This document shows positions 25,426-36,935 of a stretch of 42,131 nucleotides of DNA, one piece after another (positions within the stretch are counted from its first letter, which is position 1; each line of letters starts with the position of its first letter). Both the position numbers and the translations under genes were made by a program. This stretch comes from Parabacteroides sp. GTDB lineage: Bacteria > Bacteroidota > Bacteroidia > Bacteroidales > Tannerellaceae. The notes under the pieces are model-generated. The model worked only from the letters and a program-made list of their open reading frames with translations, was not told the origin of the DNA and did not search any database. The stretch is from the NCBI GenBank assembly GCA_017937385.1, contig JAGBDR010000032.1, positions 1 through 42,131 of the forward strand, read 5' to 3'.

Positions 25426-26694
25426 TTAGGTTTGTCGCTTCAACATTCGGAAACCGATCCGGCAATATAAACATTTCTTTTTTTCACAATATTCGCGTTT
25501 TAGTTGGATTAATGCCTGGCTGTCACCGGCGTGTCGGACAGCGATGCCGGCGTTGCGGAAAGTGGAGACGATGGTGTTCTTTTCCGGTGGAATGCTTTCT
25601 AAAAGGCGGATGGCACGTTCGCAATATTCGGGTTGTTTGTTGTACAGGCCGTAGGCAAAGAACATCGGGACAACCGTGTTTATCAGTAGGATGTTCAGGG
25701 CGTTTTCGCCGATGGCCTTTTCTTTCCGGGGGGAAGCGTACCGGAAATGATAATGCGTTTCCCAATAAGCGGACGGAGGAATCCTGAAATACTTTTTGAG
25801 CTCTCCGGTGCTTCCGGCTTCCAGGAGGGCAGAGAACAGGGTATCGTGTTGTACCCAAAGGGCGGCCAGTTGGGCCACTTTCAGGTAGGGAAAGTTGACC
25901 GGCCGTGTCCGTAGGCTCTTGAACACGAAATCGTCTATCGGCGAAAGGCCGAACTTATGGCGGAGAAAATCGTACTCCCGTTGCAGCAGGCGGTAATAGT
26001 GGTCATCGTTCTCCTCCGCCAGCATACCCGCTTGCCCGAAAAGCAACGCCTCTATCTGCGAATGGCTGCTCCGTTGCTTTTGGATGCAACGGAGCGGCAG
26101 GCTCTTTGCCAACCGTTCAAAAGCGTCGTTGTTCACCCCAAAACCGAAGTTCCGGGTTAACGTAATATAAAAGACTTCGTTCCAGTCCGTTCCATACGCA
26201 TCCAAAAGGTGGAGGATGTCATGCGTTTTCCGTTCCAGCCGCTCGCTCAGCAATGCTTCCATCCAGCCGGCGATATGCAAGGGTTCGATTCCGGCTATAT
26301 GGCCGAGACAGGGGAGAACCGTTTCCCGGTAGAGTAACCAGTCTATGCTCCGGAGGACATTTTCCGGAACGGCTAAGCACATTTGGGGGATCGGCTCCCC
26401 GTTTGTCCGGACGGGCTGAAAGTCGTCCATGCCTGTAATGTGGAGGATTACGCCGTCATACGCCTTGTCCGTCTCATGATGATGATGCAGCCAGTCGGAG
26501 GATTTATCATGGATTTCGACACTTCCCGCCCATAGCGTTCCATCTATTTTTATTTTCGCATTGAAGAAATCGGGACCTGCATCCGTATTCTGCGTTCCGG
26601 GGTCGATTACTTGGACGGGGCGTCCGTCTGTGGTTGCCAATGAGGTGGCTGCGTAAAGTTTGTATTTCCAAACATAATGTAATAAACGTTCCAT
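25426..26694 (-). CDS. DUF2851 family protein
   Basis: This 422-residue protein matches DUF2851, a Bacteroidota-restricted family of unknown function. The start MERLLHYVWKYKLYA is followed by the conserved block VIDPGTQNTDAGPDFFNAKI near residue 29-48, WAGSVEIHDKSSDWLHHHH near 55-73 and YDGVILHITGMDD near 79. The C-terminus is Cys-rich (CEKKKCLYCRIGF). No export signal is present, so it is cytoplasmic. The N-terminal block with conserved Asp, Glu and His residues looks like a possible metal-dependent or nuclease-like site, but no activity is established. It diverges from dapB with its own -7 box. Confidence 0.9.
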   Translation of the reverse strand: MERLLHYVWKYKLYAATSLATTDGRPVQVIDPGTQNTDAGPDFFNAKIKIDGTLWAGSVEIHDKSSDWLHHHHETDKAYDGVILHITGMDDFQPVRTNGEPIPQMCLAVPENVLRSIDWLLYRETVLPCLGHIAGIEPLHIAGWMEALLSERLERKTHDILHLLDAYGTDWNEVFYITLTRNFGFGVNNDAFERLAKSLPLRCIQKQRSSHSQIEALLFGQAGMLAEENDDHYYRLLQREYDFLRHKFGLSPIDDFVFKSLRTRPVNFPYLKVAQLAALWVQHDTLFSALLEAGSTGELKKYFRIPPSAYWETHYHFRYASPRKEKAIGENALNILLINTVVPMFFAYGLYNKQPEYCERAIRLLESIPPEKNTIVSTFRNAGIAVRHAGDSQALIQLKREYCEKKKCLYCRIGFRMLKRQT

Positions 26695-26791: not shown

Positions 26792-27508
26792 ATGAAGATT
26801 GCACTTATCGGTTATGGGAAGATGGGGAAGACCATCGAACAGATTGCGTTGGGAAGAGGACACCAGATCGTGTCTATTGTTGATATAAACAATCCGGAAG
26901 AGATACATTCCGACAACTTCAAAAGGGCTGATGTCGCGATCGAGTTTACGACTCCGGCAACGGCATTCGACAATTATATGCAATGTTTTGCGGCTGGCGT
27001 TCCGGTTGTTTCCGGCACGACCGGTTGGCTCGACAAGCTCGGACAGGTCAAGGAAATGTGTGAGAAAGAGGGGAAAACCTTCTTTTATGCCTCCAATTTC
27101 AGCATCGGTGTGAACCTGTTTTTCGCCCTCAACAAATACTTAGCAAAGATCATGAATAACTTTCCCGCCTACGATATCAAAATGATGGAAACCCATCATA
27201 TCCACAAGTTGGACGCTCCCAGCGGAACCGCTATCACATTGGCGGAGGGAATCCTTGAAAATGTGGACCGAAAAGATCGCTGGACATTGGAGACGGCCGA
27301 GAAGGCGACCGATATTCCAATCCATGCCATTCGCGAAGGAGAAGTGCCGGGCATTCACGAAATCACCTACGAATCGGATGTCGACACGATCAGCATCAAG
27401 CATGATGCGAAGAGCCGTGCCGGATTTGCCTTGGGTGCCGTTATTGCCGCCGAATTTACCGTCGGAAAGAAAGGCTTCCTCGGGATGGACGATATGCTGA
27501 AATTCTAA
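26792..27508 (+). CDS. dapB: 4-hydroxy-tetrahydrodipicolinate reductase
   Basis: DapB reduces hydroxytetrahydrodipicolinate with NAD(P)H in the diaminopimelate/lysine pathway, supplying cell-wall precursor. The 238-residue protein is slightly shorter than the E. coli enzyme, as usual in Bacteroidota. The nucleotide-binding GYGKMGKTI is at residues 7-15, EFTTPATA near 50 and SGTTGW near 75. The substrate site METHHIHKLDAPSGTA near 131-146 carries the catalytic His-His and Lys. It is the first gene of a four-gene operon that continues with two signal-peptidase-like genes, an arrangement with no obvious metabolic logic. Confidence 0.97.
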   Translation: MKIALIGYGKMGKTIEQIALGRGHQIVSIVDINNPEEIHSDNFKRADVAIEFTTPATAFDNYMQCFAAGVPVVSGTTGWLDKLGQVKEMCEKEGKTFFYASNFSIGVNLFFALNKYLAKIMNNFPAYDIKMMETHHIHKLDAPSGTAITLAEGILENVDRKDRWTLETAEKATDIPIHAIREGEVPGIHEITYESDVDTISIKHDAKSRAGFALGAVIAAEFTVGKKGFLGMDDMLKF

Positions 27509-27525
27509 AATGAGGATATAAAGAC

Positions 27526-28923
27526 ATGAAAAAGTTCACTAAAAAGCAATACATAAGGTTCAGTATAGCCGCTGTCCTTTACGGACTTTTCATCCTTTGG
27601 ATGCAAAACGGATGGTTGACGCTCGGCTATATCCTGCTTGCCGATATATTCTTGACCCAATATATTCCTTGGGGAGCCTGGAAACGTTCTAAGAACCCGC
27701 AGATACGGAATATATTGGAATGGGTAGACGATATCCTCTTTGCGTTGGTTGCCGTCTATTTCATCAATATCTTTATCTTCCAGAACTACCAGATCCCCAG
27801 TTCCTCGTTGGAGAAGTCTTTGTTGGTAGGCGACTATCTGTTTGTCAGCAAGCTCAGTTACGGACCGCGCGTGCCGAACACGCCGATCGCTTTCCCATTG
27901 GTACAAAACACATTCCCGTTCCTCAATTGCAAGTCCTACCTGGACTGGCCCGAATGGGATTACAAACGGGTGAAAGGTTTCGGCCATGTGAAACGGGATG
28001 ATATTGTCGTGTTCAACTTCCCGGCCGGCGATACGGTCGCTTTGAAGGTGCAGAACCCGGATTATTACCACTCCGTCGAACAATACGGACGGGAAGCCAT
28101 CCTTCTGAATAAGGCGGAGTTCGGCGACGTGATCTACCGCCCTGTCGACAAACGTGAGAATTATGTCAAGCGGTGTATCGGTATGCCGGGCGATATGATT
28201 GAAATTCGTGACAACCAGGTCTATATCGATGGTGTTGCCGCTGAGAATCCGGAAAAGATGCAGCTCAATTATTTTGTCGAGACAGACGGTTCCATGTTGA
28301 GCGAAGAACAATTCCGCTTGCTGGAGGTCAGCAAGGCAGACCGGATGCTGATCGACGGGAGCTACAATTCCTCGTATATGTCGAAGTTGAATATTCAGAC
28401 GAACGCCAACGGGCAGTATAATCCTATCTATCATTTCCCGTTGACGCAGAAGACATTGGAAAAGGCTAAAAAACTTCCGGTCGTGAAACAGGTGGTTCTT
28501 GAACCGGACCCCGTTGGTTCCGATTACTATTATCCGGTAGACTATCCGACCGGATGGAGCCGCGACAACTACGGTCCCTTATGGATTCCGAAAAAAGGGG
28601 CTACAATCCATTTGACGGAAGAGAATATCGGGTTGTATAAACGGTGCATTGTCAATTACGAGCACAACACGTTGGAAGTGAAAGACGGTAAGGCCTATAT
28701 CAACGGTAAGCCGGCAACGGACTATACCTTTCAATACGATTATTACTGGATGATGGGTGATAACCGCCATAATAGTGCCGACAGCCGTTCTTGGGGATTC
28801 GTGCCGGAAGACCATATCGTAGGCAAGCCGATTATGATCTGGTTGTCGTTAGACAAAGATCGCAGCCTGTTCGATGGCGGTATCCGTTGGAACCGTATGT
28901 TCCGTTGGGTACATCCGGATTAA
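27526..28923 (+). CDS. lepB: Signal peptidase I, catalytically complete
   Basis: LepB cleaves signal peptides from secreted proteins at the outer face of the inner membrane. The 465-residue protein has two N-terminal hydrophobic segments (about residues 12-48 and 69-87) followed by the S26 catalytic domain. The nucleophile is Ser94 in IPSSSLEKSLLVGDYLFVSK, and the general base is Lys215 in NYVKRCIGMPGD. The conserved box MMGDNRHNSADSRSWGFVP is near residue 405. The protein is longer than E. coli LepB because of an insert between the Lys box and the GDNR box. The next gene, 10 bp downstream, is a paralogue lacking both catalytic residues. Confidence 0.95.
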   Translation: MKKFTKKQYIRFSIAAVLYGLFILWMQNGWLTLGYILLADIFLTQYIPWGAWKRSKNPQIRNILEWVDDILFALVAVYFINIFIFQNYQIPSSSLEKSLLVGDYLFVSKLSYGPRVPNTPIAFPLVQNTFPFLNCKSYLDWPEWDYKRVKGFGHVKRDDIVVFNFPAGDTVALKVQNPDYYHSVEQYGREAILLNKAEFGDVIYRPVDKRENYVKRCIGMPGDMIEIRDNQVYIDGVAAENPEKMQLNYFVETDGSMLSEEQFRLLEVSKADRMLIDGSYNSSYMSKLNIQTNANGQYNPIYHFPLTQKTLEKAKKLPVVKQVVLEPDPVGSDYYYPVDYPTGWSRDNYGPLWIPKKGATIHLTEENIGLYKRCIVNYEHNTLEVKDGKAYINGKPATDYTFQYDYYWMMGDNRHNSADSRSWGFVPEDHIVGKPIMIWLSLDKDRSLFDGGIRWNRMFRWVHPD

Positions 28924-28933
28924 GGGATTTGAT

Positions 28934-29824
28934 ATGGGGGAAAACAATCATGATATGATGAATGGAGAGGGCGACCATGGAGGTCGCCCCTACATGGGAT
29001 GGGTGGTAACGGTTGTTATCGCCTTTCTCATTGTTGTGCCTGTCCGCCGTTACTGTATCGAATCGTACCGGATCTCGACGAATGCGATGGAAGAGGCACT
29101 ACATCAAGGCGATTATATCTTCGTGGATAAATTACCGCTTGAAGGGAATCCGGGTCGGAACAAGGTCGTGCTGTTTACCAGTCCGCTTCTGAAAGATACG
29201 GTGAGCAAGCCTTTGTTCTTGAGCCGTTGTATCGGTATGCCCGGAGATACGATCCTGGTGAGTGGCGATGGATACGAAGTGAACGGAAGACGGATCCCTC
29301 ATTCCCCCCGTTCGCTTAACACCTGTTTCATCACTCAAAAGAGTGCTTCTGATTTTCTGAAAGCCTTGCAAAAGCTGAATATACCGGTGCGGAATTGGAA
29401 GAACGAAACTTTTGGCTTTTCTTTTTCCCTGACCGCTTTCGAAGAATATCAATTGCGTGAAGAACTGACGGAAGAGATGAACATCCATTTTATCCGGAAC
29501 CAAGTTGCCCCCTATAAACTGGTCGTTCCCCGTAAAGACCGGGCGTACCGTTTGGATGAAGCGGCCCTTACCGCCTGTAAGGAGGCGATACTGACCGAAT
29601 CTGGAGAAAAGGCTGTTTTTCGTGACGGAAAACTCTATTTGGACGGACGGGAAACTACGTTTTTCTTCTTCAAACAGGATTATTACTGGATGCTTTCCGA
29701 CAATGTCGACGAATCGGTCGATTCCCGCCATCTGGGTTTTATCCCGCGTGAACATATCATCGGGAATGCCTGGTTCTGTTGGTTCAGCCGTGACAAACAA
29801 CGAATCTTTAAACCCGTAAACTGA
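28934..29824 (+). CDS. Signal peptidase I-like protein lacking the Ser/Lys dyad
   Basis: This 296-residue S26-family paralogue lies directly after lepB. It has one membrane helix (about residues 22-38) and keeps the family layout. At the nucleophile position, where LepB has Ser94 (IPSSSL), it has Ala51 (ISTNAM). At the general-base position (YVKRCIGMPGD in LepB) it reads FLSRCIGMPGD, so Lys is replaced by Ser97. The GDNR box is altered to SDNV, although the DSRHLGFIPREHIIG tail is kept. It is therefore probably a pseudoenzyme, perhaps a partner or regulator of LepB. The frame is intact and overlaps the next gene by one base (TGATG), so it is not decaying. The ATG at 28934 has AAGGGA upstream; an in-frame ATG at 28994 is an alternative, because a GGGCGACC palindrome occupies codons 12-19. 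Confidence 0.88.
   Translation: MGENNHDMMNGEGDHGGRPYMGWVVTVVIAFLIVVPVRRYCIESYRISTNAMEEALHQGDYIFVDKLPLEGNPGRNKVVLFTSPLLKDTVSKPLFLSRCIGMPGDTILVSGDGYEVNGRRIPHSPRSLNTCFITQKSASDFLKALQKLNIPVRNWKNETFGFSFSLTAFEEYQLREELTEEMNIHFIRNQVAPYKLVVPRKDRAYRLDEAALTACKEAILTESGEKAVFRDGKLYLDGRETTFFFFKQDYYWMLSDNVDESVDSRHLGFIPREHIIGNAWFCWFSRDKQRIFKPVN
28969..28989. repeat. GGGCGACC palindrome inside the LepB-like coding start
   Basis: GGGCGACC (28969-28976) and GGTCGCCC (28982-28989) form an 8-bp stem with a 5-nt loop, followed by CTAC. It resembles GTAGGGGCGACC-type palindromes that I recall as dispersed intergenic repeats in bacteria. Here it lies in frame and encodes a Gly-rich stretch of the predicted cytoplasmic tail. 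Confidence 0.65.
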
Positions 29825-30450
29825 TGCAACCTGTCTATCTTTCTACAACCTATCTGGGCCCTGTCCAGCAGTATTGCAAATTGTTCCAATATCCGGAAGT
29901 CCGTATCGAAACATCTGAAAACTACTTGAAACAGACGTATCGGAACCGTTGTACCATCGCTGCCGCCAACGGGCCGCTGGCCTTGTCGGTCCCTATCGTC
30001 AAACCGGACACGCTGAAGTGCCTGACCCGGGACATCCGTATCTCCGATCACGGAAACTGGCGCCACCTGCATTGGAATGCGCTGGTTTCGGCCTATAATA
30101 TGAGTCCGTTTTTCGAATACTACGAAGAGGATTTCGCTCCTTTTTATGAAAAGAAGTATGAATTCCTGTTCGATTTTAATGAAGAGCTGCGCCAGTTGGT
30201 CTGCCAGCTGCTTGACCTACATCCGAATGTGATCTATACGAAAGAGTACCAGCCTGAAGTCCCCAACGATTTCCGCGAGAGCATTCGCCCGAAGCATGGA
30301 GGCGAGGATCCGGAATTTGTGCCTAAACCCTATTATCAGGTTTTTCAGAATAAACACGGTTTCCTTCCGAATATGAGTGTGGTGGACTTGTTGTTCAACA
30401 TGGGACCGGAAGGGGTGTTGGTGTTGCGCGATTCGGTCAGGGGCGTATAA
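29824..30450 (+). CDS. WbqC-family protein
   Basis: This 208-residue protein matches the WbqC family, found near O-antigen and capsule genes and conserved in Bacteroidota without a firmly established reaction. The visible blocks are the start STTYLGPVQQYCKLFQYPEV (near residues 6-25) and ENYLKQTYRNRCTIAAANGP near 32-51. SVPIVKP follows near 55, and ISDHGNWRHLHWNALVSAYN near 73-92 holds the family's conserved W, H and N residues. The C-terminus has FLPNMSVVDLLFNMGPEG. Its ATG overlaps the stop of the LepB-like gene by one base, so the two are translationally coupled. It converges on the small lipoprotein gene with 6 bp between stops. Confidence 0.9.
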   Translation: MQPVYLSTTYLGPVQQYCKLFQYPEVRIETSENYLKQTYRNRCTIAAANGPLALSVPIVKPDTLKCLTRDIRISDHGNWRHLHWNALVSAYNMSPFFEYYEEDFAPFYEKKYEFLFDFNEELRQLVCQLLDLHPNVIYTKEYQPEVPNDFRESIRPKHGGEDPEFVPKPYYQVFQNKHGFLPNMSVVDLLFNMGPEGVLVLRDSVRGV

Positions 30451-30916: not shown

Positions 30917-32473
30917 TTATTTTTTAGTTAGAAATCCGTTATACATGACTTTTAGGAGTGCGCCGTACTGGTTCCCATATAGGTTCCCCCGGTCTATTCC
31001 GACTTGCAGGTTGACGCAAAGTCCTTTCAGATGAGGAACTTGCCAAGTCGTTTCAATCATCGCCGAGGTATCATGTACCGGTGATTTGCGCGGGACATAT
31101 CCGGTTCCGAACCCTTCTCGGTAACTTACCAGTATCCTGTAGTCTAAACAGGCTGAAAGGCTACCCGATATACCCGTATGGAACCCACGGATGCGGTTGT
31201 CCACATACTGCATATATCCATCCAGATTATATAATGTAGAGGGAAAGAACGGACTGCCGATTCCCATGCCGTGATGCGTATATCCGTTGTATTGGTAATT
31301 GTTGTAATAATTGTCCGAACCGTCGGTGTGGATGGGCATGTTCGAGCCGGGGCTGTCTTCCGGGTCAAGGTGCATGGGACCGCTCTGGTTCATAAAAGTG
31401 AGAAACTCAATGACCGCACCGGACAGGAGCCCTTTTTCAGACTGATTCCATTCCAATCCCCATATTCCATCAAATCCGTTTAGTTTACCTATTCCGGAAC
31501 CGTCATCCCAAGGCCATTGGAAATAGGCGGCGATTTTGCTTCCGGAGCGAAGCCTGTACACCGCTTTCATATCCCAGGCACCTAAATGATTGCCTTTATA
31601 ATAGGTATCTTCCCCTTTGGTGATCAGCATATCCCACAGATCCCGCAATTGGAACTTTTGTTGTTTGGAGCTTGTCATTTGTCCTTTTTTGTAATAATAG
31701 ATGTCTCCTTTGAATTGGGCGGCCGCCTGCATCCCGAATGTTACCGACAGGTTTTGTTCGGGTGAAGTCCGGAAATACAAACGTTTGTAGTGATACCAGG
31801 TATCGGCCGTGACGAAATAGTTATAGTAATTATAATGGTTTTTCAGCCAGTCCTTATCTGTCGATCTGCCGTATGCGATCTCTCCTTGTATTTGTAACAT
31901 CCCCTTGGTGAACGGGATGTTTTGGAAATCGATAAACCCAATACGCAGTCCGGGGATAGGGCGGGCATTCCCGCTTTCGACATAATCCCCGCTGCCTAAC
32001 GGATTGTTGAACAAGGCGCTTTCTTGTTCTTTCATCCCGACCATCAGGAAAACTTGTCTCCATTTCAATTCGGCATAAAGTTGTTGCAGCCAGATACTGG
32101 ATGGCCTTTGCCGGTTCGTTTCCATCTGATTGGACGAAGCGTCATACCGTTGGTAATCGGTATATGTAGAAATCCCTGAAATGAAATCGGCACCGGCGCT
32201 CCACGAGAAACGTTTGTCGCGCTCCAAAGGCTTCCAGGCCGCGAAGCGGAGCTGTGCGCCTGCCTGTTGGGTAATGGTCCCATGTCGGTTGGATGCGATG
32301 TAGTAGGGGGCAAAATCTCCTTTCCCGGCATGAGCCGTCAATGAAGCGGCATAGGCGAGACCTACGGAATCGGTTTTGTCGCTCTGTTGAGCTTGGGCAT
32401 GAACGTCGAATCCTTTTGCCAACGGCAGGCAAAATATCAGGATGACTCCCGTTAATCTATTTAATAAACTCAT
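30917..32473 (-). CDS. Wzi-like outer-membrane beta-barrel (capsule assembly family)
   Basis: Wzi-family proteins are outer-membrane barrels that anchor or organise surface polysaccharide. From the chosen start (MSLLNRLTG) it has 518 residues, with a cleavable signal ending near HAQAQQ. The rest alternates aromatic-rich beta strands characteristic of the family: APYYIASNRHGTITQQAGAQ near residue 55-75, YAELKWRQVFLMVGMKEQES, and a C-terminal strand ending NGFLTKK. An upstream in-frame ATG (32593) would add 40 residues with no signal features, so 32473 is preferred. No capsule gene cluster lies here, so the polysaccharide partner is unknown. It is transcribed away from the small RNA gene. Confidence 0.87.
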   Translation of the reverse strand: MSLLNRLTGVILIFCLPLAKGFDVHAQAQQSDKTDSVGLAYAASLTAHAGKGDFAPYYIASNRHGTITQQAGAQLRFAAWKPLERDKRFSWSAGADFISGISTYTDYQRYDASSNQMETNRQRPSSIWLQQLYAELKWRQVFLMVGMKEQESALFNNPLGSGDYVESGNARPIPGLRIGFIDFQNIPFTKGMLQIQGEIAYGRSTDKDWLKNHYNYYNYFVTADTWYHYKRLYFRTSPEQNLSVTFGMQAAAQFKGDIYYYKKGQMTSSKQQKFQLRDLWDMLITKGEDTYYKGNHLGAWDMKAVYRLRSGSKIAAYFQWPWDDGSGIGKLNGFDGIWGLEWNQSEKGLLSGAVIEFLTFMNQSGPMHLDPEDSPGSNMPIHTDGSDNYYNNYQYNGYTHHGMGIGSPFFPSTLYNLDGYMQYVDNRIRGFHTGISGSLSACLDYRILVSYREGFGTGYVPRKSPVHDTSAMIETTWQVPHLKGLCVNLQVGIDRGNLYGNQYGALLKVMYNGFLTKK

Positions 32474-32707
32474 GTACGTATGCTTTACTGAAAAAACAAA
32501 GGTCGTAATTTTAAGTGAGTGTATAAAATTTGCCGGAATTTTTTTCAGATACTTGCTATCTGAGCCGTTCGTTTTTACAGTACAGCTCTTCATGGCTAAC
32601 GAATAGGGTACTATTCTGTTGTTTCCTCAAACAGGGGAGGATGTTGTATAAATAACCTTGTTTTGTCCTGTAACCCATATATTTTGTAAAATTAAGGTCG
32701 TTTTTTC

Positions 32708-33012: not shown

Positions 33013-33113
33013 ATGCCCGTCATAATCATTTGCGGAGAGTTGTTTTCTCCTTCGTAAAATTAGTTGTTGGATTTTTTTACACACTATTTTATTAACAATT
33101 AATTTAAATGATT

Positions 33114-36100
33114 ATGAACAAAAAGTTTTCTACGCTTGTAGCAACGTTATTACTTAGTGGTGCGTTGTTTACGTTGAATGCTGAGGAGGCTGTTACCCCT
33201 TCTGCTGTTTCGAAGTGGCCAGATAAAGTCACGGTGGTTGAGACAGGTGAAGAGGGCAGTAAGGTTGTGAAATCAATCACATTCGCAGGTGATGTGACTT
33301 TGGAAAGCGGACAGTATCTGCTTGTCAAAGACAACGATGTCGTTATTGACGGTGCAGGTAAGACATTAAATGGCTTTATTGTCATTACTGGTAACAATTG
33401 TACGGTTAAGAATTTGAAGATTAACCATGTGTCTCCTGTTGCAAAAGGTATCGGCCGTAGAGCGATTGATGTAATTGCTGAAGGTGTAACAATCACCGGG
33501 TGCGAAATCAATTGCGGAAATGATGAAAGTGAGAATTTGACTAACGGTATCGCAATAAATCCGACGGCTCAAAAAGAAGGTGCTGAAAAAGCAAAAATTA
33601 CTATTACGGGCAATAAATTCAAAGGATTTGTTAAGACCACAGAAGATGGTGATAAGACTTGGTCTGCTACCGGTTTGATGATCGAAAGCAATGCAGCTAT
33701 TGCGACAGATTATGCTGCACTTTGGACAGATGGGAAGTCTGCACCTACTGCTGCTGCCGATTTTGAAAATATAACGTTGACTATTTCCGGAAACACATTC
33801 GAGAATTGTATAGTGGATTATGTCTGCCAGATCTGGGATACAGACAATAGTACAATCGGCGAAGTGATAGGAGTTCAAATTTCTCCGTTGTATAATAATG
33901 ATAAAACTGAAATCACAAATGGTGATGGAGTTACTGATTATGCTAAATTGGTAGCCGATGGGGTTATTGTTAAGTTTAACGGTTCCGCCGATGAATTGGC
34001 CAAGGCTTTGGAGTCAGTCAGCGATAAAGGTACTTCTCCAGTCCAAACCAAAGACGGCGTTGTTTCTACTGTCGCTCCGGCGGAGGAAGAGGTCGCTGGC
34101 TATATTTTAGCAACGAAGCCGGAAAGCGACGGTTATTATGTGCTGGCATTCACAAGTGGTGATAAGATTTATTATGTCAGCGACGCAAAAGGTTCAGTTA
34201 CCGAATTGTCTGATGAAGCTGAAATCACTGAGACTGCTTTGTGGAAAATGGAGCCGACATTGGATAAAGATGGTGATTATACATTCATCTTCAAGAACAA
34301 GAAAGACGAAACATTGACGGTTGGCGGTAATGGCTTTTTGCAGTCTGCTGTAAAAGGAGTTCCTTATGGTGTTAACGGTGTGCCGTTTGCGTTGAAGGCT
34401 GAAGATGGCAAATTGGCTACAACCGATGATGCTATTGTAAACTTTGGTCTTTACAAAGCTGGTATTTATACATTGACAGCTAAAGATTTGTATTTCTTTG
34501 AAAAAACAGGTTTTACTATCACTATTGATGGTAAATTGGCTGGCGATCCGTTTACAGGCAACCGTTTGGCTCCGATGTCTTGGAATGGTACTGAATTTGT
34601 AAACGCTGCTGATAATGAAATTAATGTATCTCTCCGTTTCAAAAACGCAGACGATGAATATGAATATATCGTAGCTAAGAAGACGAATGCAGGAGGTACG
34701 GCAGTTAATCAGTATGTATATGCATTTACTACTGTTTCTGAAAAGGATTTGATCGCTGAACGTAAGAAGGAAGCGAAGAAGCGTACTATGTTTGACGTAT
34801 TCACAGCCTTCCATAAACCGGTTAGCGCAAGTGATAACTTGGAAACATTGACGAGCATTGACAGTATCACTGTTCAGGTTTTGAACAAGGATGATATATT
34901 GGAAGCAGCTTCTGTTGGTTATTTCAAGTTGACAACTGATGGAACAAAGACTTTGGGTGCTTCTATTGATTATAAATTGTTCCCGATCACGATCAAAATG
35001 GGTAACAATGTTGTTGATCCGGCTGCTTTTTTACAGAAAAAATTCTTTACAATCACTCGCTTGGATGAAAAGAACGGTGATAGAATTTACGCTGTAAATG
35101 GTTGTGGCAATAGAGGCTGGGTAAAAGAAGCTGGAAACATTTTGGATACTCAGTGGGCTGTTACTTACGACGAAGAAGCTGCTGAATATACATTCACGAA
35201 CCGTGAAAATAAAGCTGTTTCTTTCTCGATTGCTAAAAATCAACTGCGTGAAAATGGAGATAAGACAGATGATATTTACACAGACGGTGAAAAACTGTAC
35301 AAGATTGTTGCTGTAGAAGGTGAAGTATCTGACGGTTACAACTGGTTAGGTGATGTAAAGAACCAGCGTTTCCATATCGCTCACTACTCTTCTGTTTATG
35401 AAAACAATGCTTGGATTTCTGCAGATAAGGATGGCAATGCAATTCTGAATCTTGATGAAGATGCAGCTGTTGAATTTGTTGCTAACAAAGGCAGATATAA
35501 CTCTTATGACGTAGATACAGTATTTGTTGTAAGTAAATTAGGCTACTATGATGGCACTAAGTTTACGACAGAAGATAATACGTTGAAAGTTCCTGTTTAT
35601 CGTTTCTTTAATGTCGCAGGTCAAGGATTCCAGTCATGGTTAAGGAATGATAAATATTCATTTGCTAATGTTAGTGATGATGCTGTTTATCCATTAGCTA
35701 TCCGTGAAAATGGTGATGATAAATATAACTTACGTTCAGTTGGTGAAAATGAATCAGGTAAATTAGGATTGGTATGCCAGAAGATTTATGCAGGAACTTC
35801 TACAAACTTCTTGAGTAATTGCGGTATGTATGAAGTAAACAACAGCTTGTTCGTTATTGAACCTCTGGACCGTCCGGAATACCGTCGCTTGGGTGAAACG
35901 GTTGCTAACGATGGCTTCAAAGATTTGAACGTCAACTTGGCTAAGTTCTTCCGTACAAATGTTGAAAATACATTCTTGTATGAAAACAGCCTGAACCGCA
36001 ATGCTAACAACGGCAACGGTATTGCTAAAGATAGCTTGAACTTCTTGGGTGAAGTGAACTTGGCTGACAAACCTGCTTCTGCAGCTCTGCCTCTGTTCGT

Positions 36101-36935
36101 TGATACTGCATTCGTCCGTAACGATGTAGCAACAGGTGAACCTACAACTAAACCGTTGTATATGTTGGCTGTACGCAACACCGATATGGAAGAAGATGAA
36201 ATCGTTGTTGAACCTTGCGATGCTACTAACCACCAGCACATCACAGCTGACGGTGAAAAGACTGACGACGCAAGCAAGTGTGTACACGCTACAACGAAGA
36301 AAGTTCTTTCTCGCAAGGCTGAATATTTGGTAGCTTTGACAGATACGGCTTACAATACTTCTAACAAGCAGGCTTTGTATCAGTATAATGTTCGTTTGGC
36401 ATTCGTACCGGCTACTCACTTCGAAAATGATACGTTGGTAATCGCAAGTTCAAGATACACCGGAACAAAAGATGCTGCTAAGGATACATTGAGCTTCGTA
36501 AACGAAAAGGGTGAACAGCAGATGAACGCTGCAACCTTCGCATTCCGCTTGGTTGATCCGGCTGCTGAAGATGGCGCATTCTATATTGAAGCTGAACCGA
36601 ATGCTTATGGTTATACTCAGTATGTACGTATCCACAACAGTGTACCTGTATTGGTAACAAGTTTGGATCAGGCTGCTACATTCAACGTTGAAGCCACAGA
36701 CGAAGCTGCTACTTCTAACGAAGGCATCGCTACTTCTGAAGTGAAAGTTATCGCCGGTGAAGGTCAAGTAACAATCGCTGGTGCTGCCGGCAAGAAGGTT
36801 GTGATCAGCAACATCCTGGGTCAGGTAGTCGCTAACACGGTTCTGGTTTCTGACAATGCTGTAATCGCTGCTCCTCAAGGTGTAGTTGTCGTAGCTGTCG
36901 AAGGCGAAGAAGCTGTGAAGGCTATCGTAAAATAA
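33114..36935 (+). CDS. Large exported protein with beta-helix region and DUF6383-like C-terminus
   Basis: From MNKKFSTL this is a 1273-residue protein with a cleavable signal (LVATLLLSGALFTLNAEE). Residues ~45-260 contain right-handed beta-helix repeats, with runs such as KDNDVVIDGAGKTLNGFIVI, NNCTVKNLKI and GVTITGCEI. The middle is a series of beta-rich modules. The last ~70 residues (VTIAGAAGKKVVISNILGQV, ending AVKAIVK) match the DUF6383 tail seen in Parabacteroides secreted proteins and resemble type IX sorting domains (NILGQV, then an AAPQGVVVV strand). It is probably exported by the type IX system and attached to the surface. Codons are visibly A/T-richer than in neighbours (GAA, GCT, GTA, GGT), which suggests high expression or a different origin. 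A start 6 bp upstream (33108) is also possible. Confidence 0.85.
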   Translation: MNKKFSTLVATLLLSGALFTLNAEEAVTPSAVSKWPDKVTVVETGEEGSKVVKSITFAGDVTLESGQYLLVKDNDVVIDGAGKTLNGFIVITGNNCTVKNLKINHVSPVAKGIGRRAIDVIAEGVTITGCEINCGNDESENLTNGIAINPTAQKEGAEKAKITITGNKFKGFVKTTEDGDKTWSATGLMIESNAAIATDYAALWTDGKSAPTAAADFENITLTISGNTFENCIVDYVCQIWDTDNSTIGEVIGVQISPLYNNDKTEITNGDGVTDYAKLVADGVIVKFNGSADELAKALESVSDKGTSPVQTKDGVVSTVAPAEEEVAGYILATKPESDGYYVLAFTSGDKIYYVSDAKGSVTELSDEAEITETALWKMEPTLDKDGDYTFIFKNKKDETLTVGGNGFLQSAVKGVPYGVNGVPFALKAEDGKLATTDDAIVNFGLYKAGIYTLTAKDLYFFEKTGFTITIDGKLAGDPFTGNRLAPMSWNGTEFVNAADNEINVSLRFKNADDEYEYIVAKKTNAGGTAVNQYVYAFTTVSEKDLIAERKKEAKKRTMFDVFTAFHKPVSASDNLETLTSIDSITVQVLNKDDILEAASVGYFKLTTDGTKTLGASIDYKLFPITIKMGNNVVDPAAFLQKKFFTITRLDEKNGDRIYAVNGCGNRGWVKEAGNILDTQWAVTYDEEAAEYTFTNRENKAVSFSIAKNQLRENGDKTDDIYTDGEKLYKIVAVEGEVSDGYNWLGDVKNQRFHIAHYSSVYENNAWISADKDGNAILNLDEDAAVEFVANKGRYNSYDVDTVFVVSKLGYYDGTKFTTEDNTLKVPVYRFFNVAGQGFQSWLRNDKYSFANVSDDAVYPLAIRENGDDKYNLRSVGENESGKLGLVCQKIYAGTSTNFLSNCGMYEVNNSLFVIEPLDRPEYRRLGETVANDGFKDLNVNLAKFFRTNVENTFLYENSLNRNANNGNGIAKDSLNFLGEVNLADKPASAALPLFVDTAFVRNDVATGEPTTKPLYMLAVRNTDMEEDEIVVEPCDATNHQHITADGEKTDDASKCVHATTKKVLSRKAEYLVALTDTAYNTSNKQALYQYNVRLAFVPATHFENDTLVIASSRYTGTKDAAKDTLSFVNEKGEQQMNAATFAFRLVDPAAEDGAFYIEAEPNAYGYTQYVRIHNSVPVLVTSLDQAATFNVEATDEAATSNEGIATSEVKVIAGEGQVTIAGAAGKKVVISNILGQVVANTVLVSDNAVIAAPQGVVVVAVEGEEAVKAIVK

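Follow-up and report, generated by a model that had tools for sequence, protein, structure and literature searches.

A maintained paralogue of LepB without the signal peptidase dyad, encoded directly behind lepB in Parabacteroides and its relatives

We have analysed a stretch of 42,131 nucleotides from Parabacteroides sp. (GenBank assembly GCA_017937385.1, contig JAGBDR010000032.1), hereafter the window, in which an intact lepB gene is directly followed by a second gene of the S26 signal peptidase family. The product of this second gene (28934..29824, forward strand, 296 amino acids) is a LepB-like pseudo-signal peptidase, namely a real, apparently old and maintained paralogue of LepB without the catalytic dyad. 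We propose that it may act as a non-cutting accessory partner of the LepB step that arose from an old lepB duplication and was kept by selection, and we give this proposal about an even chance.

The neighbouring LepB (27526..28923, forward strand, 465 amino acids) is an active-type signal peptidase I according to its profile match and alignments, with Ser94 as the nucleophile and Lys215 as the general base. When the two proteins were aligned, ISTNAM of the paralogue (residues 47-52) fell on IPSSSL of LepB (90-95), which places Ala51 (codon 29084..29086) in the Ser94 column, and FLSRC (95-99) fell on YVKRC (213-217), which places Ser97 (codon 29222..29224) in the Lys215 column. PDB searches with both proteins against E. 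coli signal peptidase I aligned the same columns (IPSGSM and YIKRAVG), where LepB has S and K and the paralogue has A and S. Box E of the paralogue is degenerate (SDNVDESVDSR, 29696..29728; GDNRHNSADSR in LepB), with SDNV (255-258) opposite GDNR (411-414), while MPGD (102) and DSR (263) are retained. The first-pass annotation had read these replacements, the retained motifs and the open frame by eye, and the alignments and the open reading frame (ORF) bear them out. The paralogue belongs to the S26 family by its Pfam match (PF10502, Peptidase_S26, 6e-27) and scores 95.5 bits against the NCBIfam profile TIGR02227, whose cut-off is 47. By its residues it would not be an active type I signal peptidase, having Ala51 for Ser and Ser97 for Lys.

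The orthologues lack the dyad as well. We searched 123 genomes of Tannerellaceae and found the paralogue in 108. Among the 107 readable copies, the Lys column held Ser in 77, Gly in 28, Asn in one and Ala in one, and Lys in none; the nucleophile column held Ala in 49, Ser in 41, Lys in 7 and other residues in 10. Thus counted, no copy has an intact dyad, 66 have lost both residues and 41 keep Ser alone. The adjoining LepB has Lys, GDNR and DSR in 108 of 108 rows and Ser in all 107 readable ones (one row is gapped), and DSR is present in all 106 readable paralogues. In a Bacteroidaceae-like family (f60), the paralogue was present in 44 of 50 chosen loci, which were the 30 best among the matches listed plus 20 picked by hand, and this fraction is accordingly no prevalence. 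The Lys column of these 44 copies holds Gly, Ser, Asn, Ala, Cys or Tyr and never Lys, and the nucleophile column holds Gly in 33, with the short rows poorly aligned and three gaps in the Ser column. The f60 LepB rows have Ser/Lys in 47 of 49, the other two being incomplete. The first-pass annotation had held that both catalytic residues were lost, and it named a consistent loss of both in orthologues, with purifying selection on the rest, as what would support its claim. The loss of both is true of the window copy and of the 66 copies above, and it is not a rule, as Ser is so often kept; the family rule is the loss of Lys.

The paralogue is under purifying selection. The ratio of nonsynonymous to synonymous substitution rates (dN/dS) to four near relatives was 0.056, 0.072, 0.118 and 0.091 for the paralogue and 0.077, 0.049, 0.062 and 0.046 for LepB. 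The set comprised 13 genomes and 78 pairs; the proportion of synonymous differences (pS) stayed below 0.62 in 7 of the paralogue pairs and 8 of those of LepB, and the comparison with L007 was near saturation. Residues corresponding to LepB S94, K215, G411, R414, S417, P91 and K97 are mostly replaced within the paralogue clade, as are 17 further positions conserved in LepB; G59, P103, G104, N257, D263, S264 and R265 are kept in at least 90% of both the paralogue and the LepB groups. In terms of variability within the paralogue, the SYRIST strand lies at percentiles 6-34 and S97-R98-C99 at 17, 1 and 11. The nucleophile column and other columns on the side of the cleft (V78, V79, F95 and L96) are near the median, and the column of the GDNR Arg is at the 88th percentile.

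Our trees were built from subsets (122 of 192 prepared rows, 85 rows and 89 rows) by a quick method; they are unrooted, are weakly supported at many branches and contain some long rows. In the 85-row tree, which was built without the two dyad columns, 36 LepB rows form one clade (99) and 38 paralogues form another (Shimodaira-Hasegawa-like approximate likelihood ratio test, SH-aLRT, 100). Tannerellaceae contribute 17 copies to the latter and f60 another 14, while the remaining 7 are spread over seven additional families; none of the 38 has Lys in the Lys column. Because the paralogues form a clade apart from LepB, the loss of the dyad looks old. The simplest reading of the sequences would be one old tandem duplication of lepB, after which the general-base Lys was lost at or near the base of a clade spanning several Bacteroidales families and the nucleophile Ser then drifted; this direction is taken from the tree and the columns, with no root computed. 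A third group of 11 copies has mixed dyad states, two of them still intact. In another group of tandem or second copies from other Bacteroidales families (L019, L030, L265, L278 and L289), Lys is often kept and Ser replaced (KK, RK, MK, NK), which is the reverse of the loss order in the main paralogue clade. We also sampled 107 loci from other orders, including L012 from f60, whose copy groups with a Bacteroidaceae copy with a support of 100. LepB could be read at 103 of these loci, and an S26 copy stood directly beside it at 30, with dyad states from intact SK to QS, GS, NS, RK, KK, EM and others.

The AlphaFold model of the paralogue (predicted local distance difference test, pLDDT, 92.0; predicted template modelling score, pTM, 0.83) shows a single N-terminal helix (19-40), the S26 fold and an inserted alpha/beta domain at about residues 124-190. 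Short f60 forms of about 200-258 amino acids (loci L333-L349) keep the S26 core, and the inserted domain is seemingly gone from them. The fold matches of the model are E. coli signal peptidase, tied with the inactive SipA of S. pyogenes. The Foldseek superpositions on these chains are modest because the inserts differ, with template modelling (TM) scores of 0.34-0.38 by query and 0.45-0.71 by target and a root-mean-square deviation (rmsd) of 8-12 Å over all columns. Compared with E. coli LepB (1b12, 1t7d, 3s04), the paralogue is without the Ser/Lys dyad and has SDNV for GDNR. The earlier idea of a maintained pseudoenzyme is thus upheld by the kept fold, by the purifying selection and by the dyad, which is intact in none of the Tannerellaceae and f60 copies; no close relative with an intact dyad turned up among the Tannerellaceae orthologues to speak against it.

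Inactive homologues of signal peptidase were already known. The dyad of SipA is replaced by Asp48/Gly85 with the cleft kept, its peptidase activity is undetectable, and pilus polymerisation depends on it; peptide binding could not be detected in that study (PMC4049620). In S. aureus, SpsA is described as inactive and dispensable, with two conserved catalytic residues missing, beside the essential and active SpsB (PMC12445088). The first-pass annotation was aware of no role reported for a partner of this sort; in view of SipA and SpsA, that statement needs correcting, and the kind of protein is not new. On the one hand, SipA (PDB 4n31) and the paralogue share the S26 fold and the replacement of both dyad residues, and SipA keeps a peptide cleft. 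On the other hand, the gene for SipA lies in a Gram-positive genome amid genes for pilins and sortases, whereas the paralogue has a larger insert and stands in the dapB-lepB-wbqC row of Bacteroidales. The likeness to SpsA is that of a genome with an active signal peptidase plus an inactive homologue. We take spsA and spsB to be adjacent in S. aureus; unlike SpsA/SpsB, the Bacteroidota paralogue follows a much longer LepB. The literature searched, mainly openly accessible titles and abstract openings, describes no inactive copy in tandem with LepB in Bacteroidota. Signal peptidase substrates in the phylum of the Bacteroidales are known to follow a Q-rule (PMC5837995), and the passages of the Q-rule literature that we examined do not mention such a paralogue.

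A comparable pair was seen in family f159, which holds the copy of Sediminibacterium sp. MAG03 (L085). Here, 22 copies of about 300 amino acids have Asp/Gln (21) or Asp/Gly (1) in the dyad columns, and lepB was also seen at 20 of their loci, with Ser/Lys in 19 and one incomplete. Those at L353-L397 have Asp at the nucleophile site, as SipA does. Another 11 f159 loci have a copy of 326-380 amino acids with Ser/Lys, and lepB is also visible only at L402. The Asp/Gln copies resemble the window paralogue in size, in family, in their place downstream of an intact lepB, at the loci that reach it, and in the lost dyad; they differ in the nearly fixed Asp/Gln pair and in being nested, in the best tree, among active copies. 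In the best 89-row tree, the Asp/Gln clade (100) sits with the active copies (96) and apart from the Bacteroidales clade, and a joint clade with the Bacteroidales paralogues is also compatible with the data (approximately unbiased test, AU, p 0.354). An independent origin of the f159 pair is plausible.

Whether the paralogue is coupled to LepB was judged from gene order and from covariation of evolutionary rates. In the window, the paralogue starts after a 10-nt gap behind the end of lepB (28923), and its TGA stop shares one base with the ATG of a WbqC-family gene (29824..30450, forward strand; PF08889, 8.9e-32; gene order in relatives), which agrees with the tight packing reported before. The row dapB-lepB-paralogue-wbqC begins with dapB (26792..27508, forward strand; TIGR00036, 5.3e-45; PF05173 and PF01113; gene order). 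In Tannerellaceae, the paralogue and lepB are on one strand in 107 of 107 pairs, and wbqC is close downstream in 104 of the 107. For covariation, we used the 64 of 109 genomes in which all four genes were long enough. With the dapB and wbqC distances held constant, the partial correlation between paralogue and LepB distances was 0.65, compared with 0.08 for paralogue-wbqC and 0.005 for paralogue-dapB. On fixed branches with trimmed alignments, paralogue-LepB gave 0.454, and the paralogue gave 0.28 with wbqC and 0.06 with dapB. Both the gene order and these covariations hint at a function shared with LepB, for which the first-pass annotation had suggested pairing with LepB or a binding of signal peptides without cutting.

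Several observations weigh against such a coupling. Other pairs also covary in the distance version (wbqC-dapB 0.39, lepB-wbqC 0.33, lepB-dapB 0.20), and on fixed branches LepB covaries with wbqC (0.27) and dapB (0.25), while wbqC-dapB reaches 0.452, equal to the value for paralogue-LepB. Since wbqC and dapB covary as strongly, the paralogue-LepB covariation is unspecific, and the gene order may reflect vertical inheritance only. Also, lepB occurs without the paralogue at the lepB locus of 7 of the 123 Tannerellaceae genomes and at 6 f60 loci, so LepB can do without it there. At 73 of the 103 loci from other orders, no S26 neighbour stands beside lepB. The remaining Tannerellaceae genomes were unresolved (two, G198 and G230) or without a match (six). 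In five of the seven Tannerellaceae loci lepB is directly followed by wbqC, one has an extra gene between and one shows no wbqC; at all six f60 loci lepB runs into wbqC with a spacing of 3-218 nt. At most loci of other families that have no copy (62 of the 73), wbqC was not seen by lepB. In G149, which is without the paralogue, an unrelated ORF (L222) with an HAKCY motif, presumably phospholipase-D-like, sits between lepB and wbqC. Because seven Tannerellaceae genomes have lepB alone, the paralogue is accessory and not indispensable.

We favour the explanation that the paralogue is a membrane-anchored protein, by its residues incapable of the Ser/Lys mechanism, which is maintained because it is still functional, as selection shows. 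Encoded directly after lepB, it is expected in the same membrane as LepB, where the retained peptide cleft, the inserted domain or both would hold the cleavage region of preproteins or LepB itself. In this way, it would change which substrates LepB cuts, or how fast. By inference, a role as partner in the LepB step, or as its modulator, is most likely. Since the paralogue is intact under selection and pairs of a working and a dead copy recur in relatives, it is probably a helper and not a leftover.

Four other explanations were weighed. The paralogue could be a substrate-specific assembly chaperone like SipA, which would bind the signal or sorting region of one class of exported proteins, such as fimbriae, with LepB uninvolved. 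We consider this unlikely, since no pilin family was found in the eight flanking window proteins scanned, and the presence of the paralogue does not go along with fimbrillin matches (PF06321), which occurred in 4 of the 12 genomes that carry it and in 2 of the 13 that lack it, a comparison of hand-picked genomes with a profile that covers only part of the fimbrillins. Equally improbable is a regulator or membrane scaffold of LepB that would act via the inserted ACT/ferredoxin-like domain and the membrane helix, the dead cleft being a structural remnant; the SYRIST strand and S97-R98-C99 are among the better conserved columns, and the short f60 forms, which retain the core, have seemingly shed the insert, the opposite of what a scaffold would predict. 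A specialised peptidase whose active site is rearranged but can still cut might explain the Ser kept in the nucleophile column of 41 Tannerellaceae copies, the DSR and the conserved Lys66 (102 of 107 Tannerellaceae copies, Arg in 5). However, there is no base in the Lys column of any Tannerellaceae or f60 copy, the nucleophile column is widely variable, and Lys66 is no new base because LepB has a Lys at the aligned position. Moreover, LepB Ser417 is the equivalent of E. coli Ser278, which we take to hold the catalytic Lys; the window paralogue keeps Ser there (Ser261), and of the 106 Tannerellaceae copies readable in this column 94 have Ala or Gly. We regard continued cleavage as very improbable. 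A functionless, decaying duplicate is hardly credible: the paralogue does evolve faster than LepB (mean tree distances on untrimmed frames 2.07 and 1.08; wbqC 1.84, dapB 1.11), is missing from some lineages and has stops in three Tannerellaceae matches (G152, G258 and G229) among the matches listed, but the low dN/dS to near relatives (0.06-0.12), the DSR in every readable Tannerellaceae copy and the retention across several families stand against decay, and a decaying pseudogene was rejected on dN/dS. Chance alignment was ruled out by the profile and fold matches, and a local mutation or sequencing error by the absence of Lys from all orthologues that were read in the two families.

As for the surroundings, translation may in fact begin at Met21, since the start of many orthologues lies about 20 residues further in. 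The 5' coding end of the paralogue (28969-28989) carries a perfect palindrome with 8-bp arms, GGGCGACC..GGTCGCCC; as a genome repeat it was rejected, since the genome contains it exactly only once. Elsewhere, the same genome encodes a third S26 protein (L001, G000:C34), which has an intact dyad (IPSDSM and YYIKRC) and the box E GDKGMNSQDSR. The row is flanked in the window by genes for a DUF2851 protein (25426-26694, reverse strand; profile scan), a Wzi-like capsule assembly protein (30917-32593, reverse strand; profile scan) and a 1275-amino-acid protein ending in DUF6383 (33108-36935; PF19910).

In summary, profile annotation would label this dyad-less paralogue 'signal peptidase I', as its TIGR02227 score is above the cut-off. 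Bacterial signal peptidase I is usually regarded as a single-protein enzyme. We tentatively raise the possibility, which we hold to be less probable than an accessory role as such, that many gut Bacteroidales have a two-subunit signal peptidase I, in which catalytic LepB would work with a dead paralogue that selects or presents substrates, and that such pairs evolved more than once. If true, this would be a bacterial parallel, in spirit, to the signal peptidase complex of eukaryotes, and a conserved dead partner of LepB would represent an unrecognised control layer in the Sec pathway of gut Bacteroidales.
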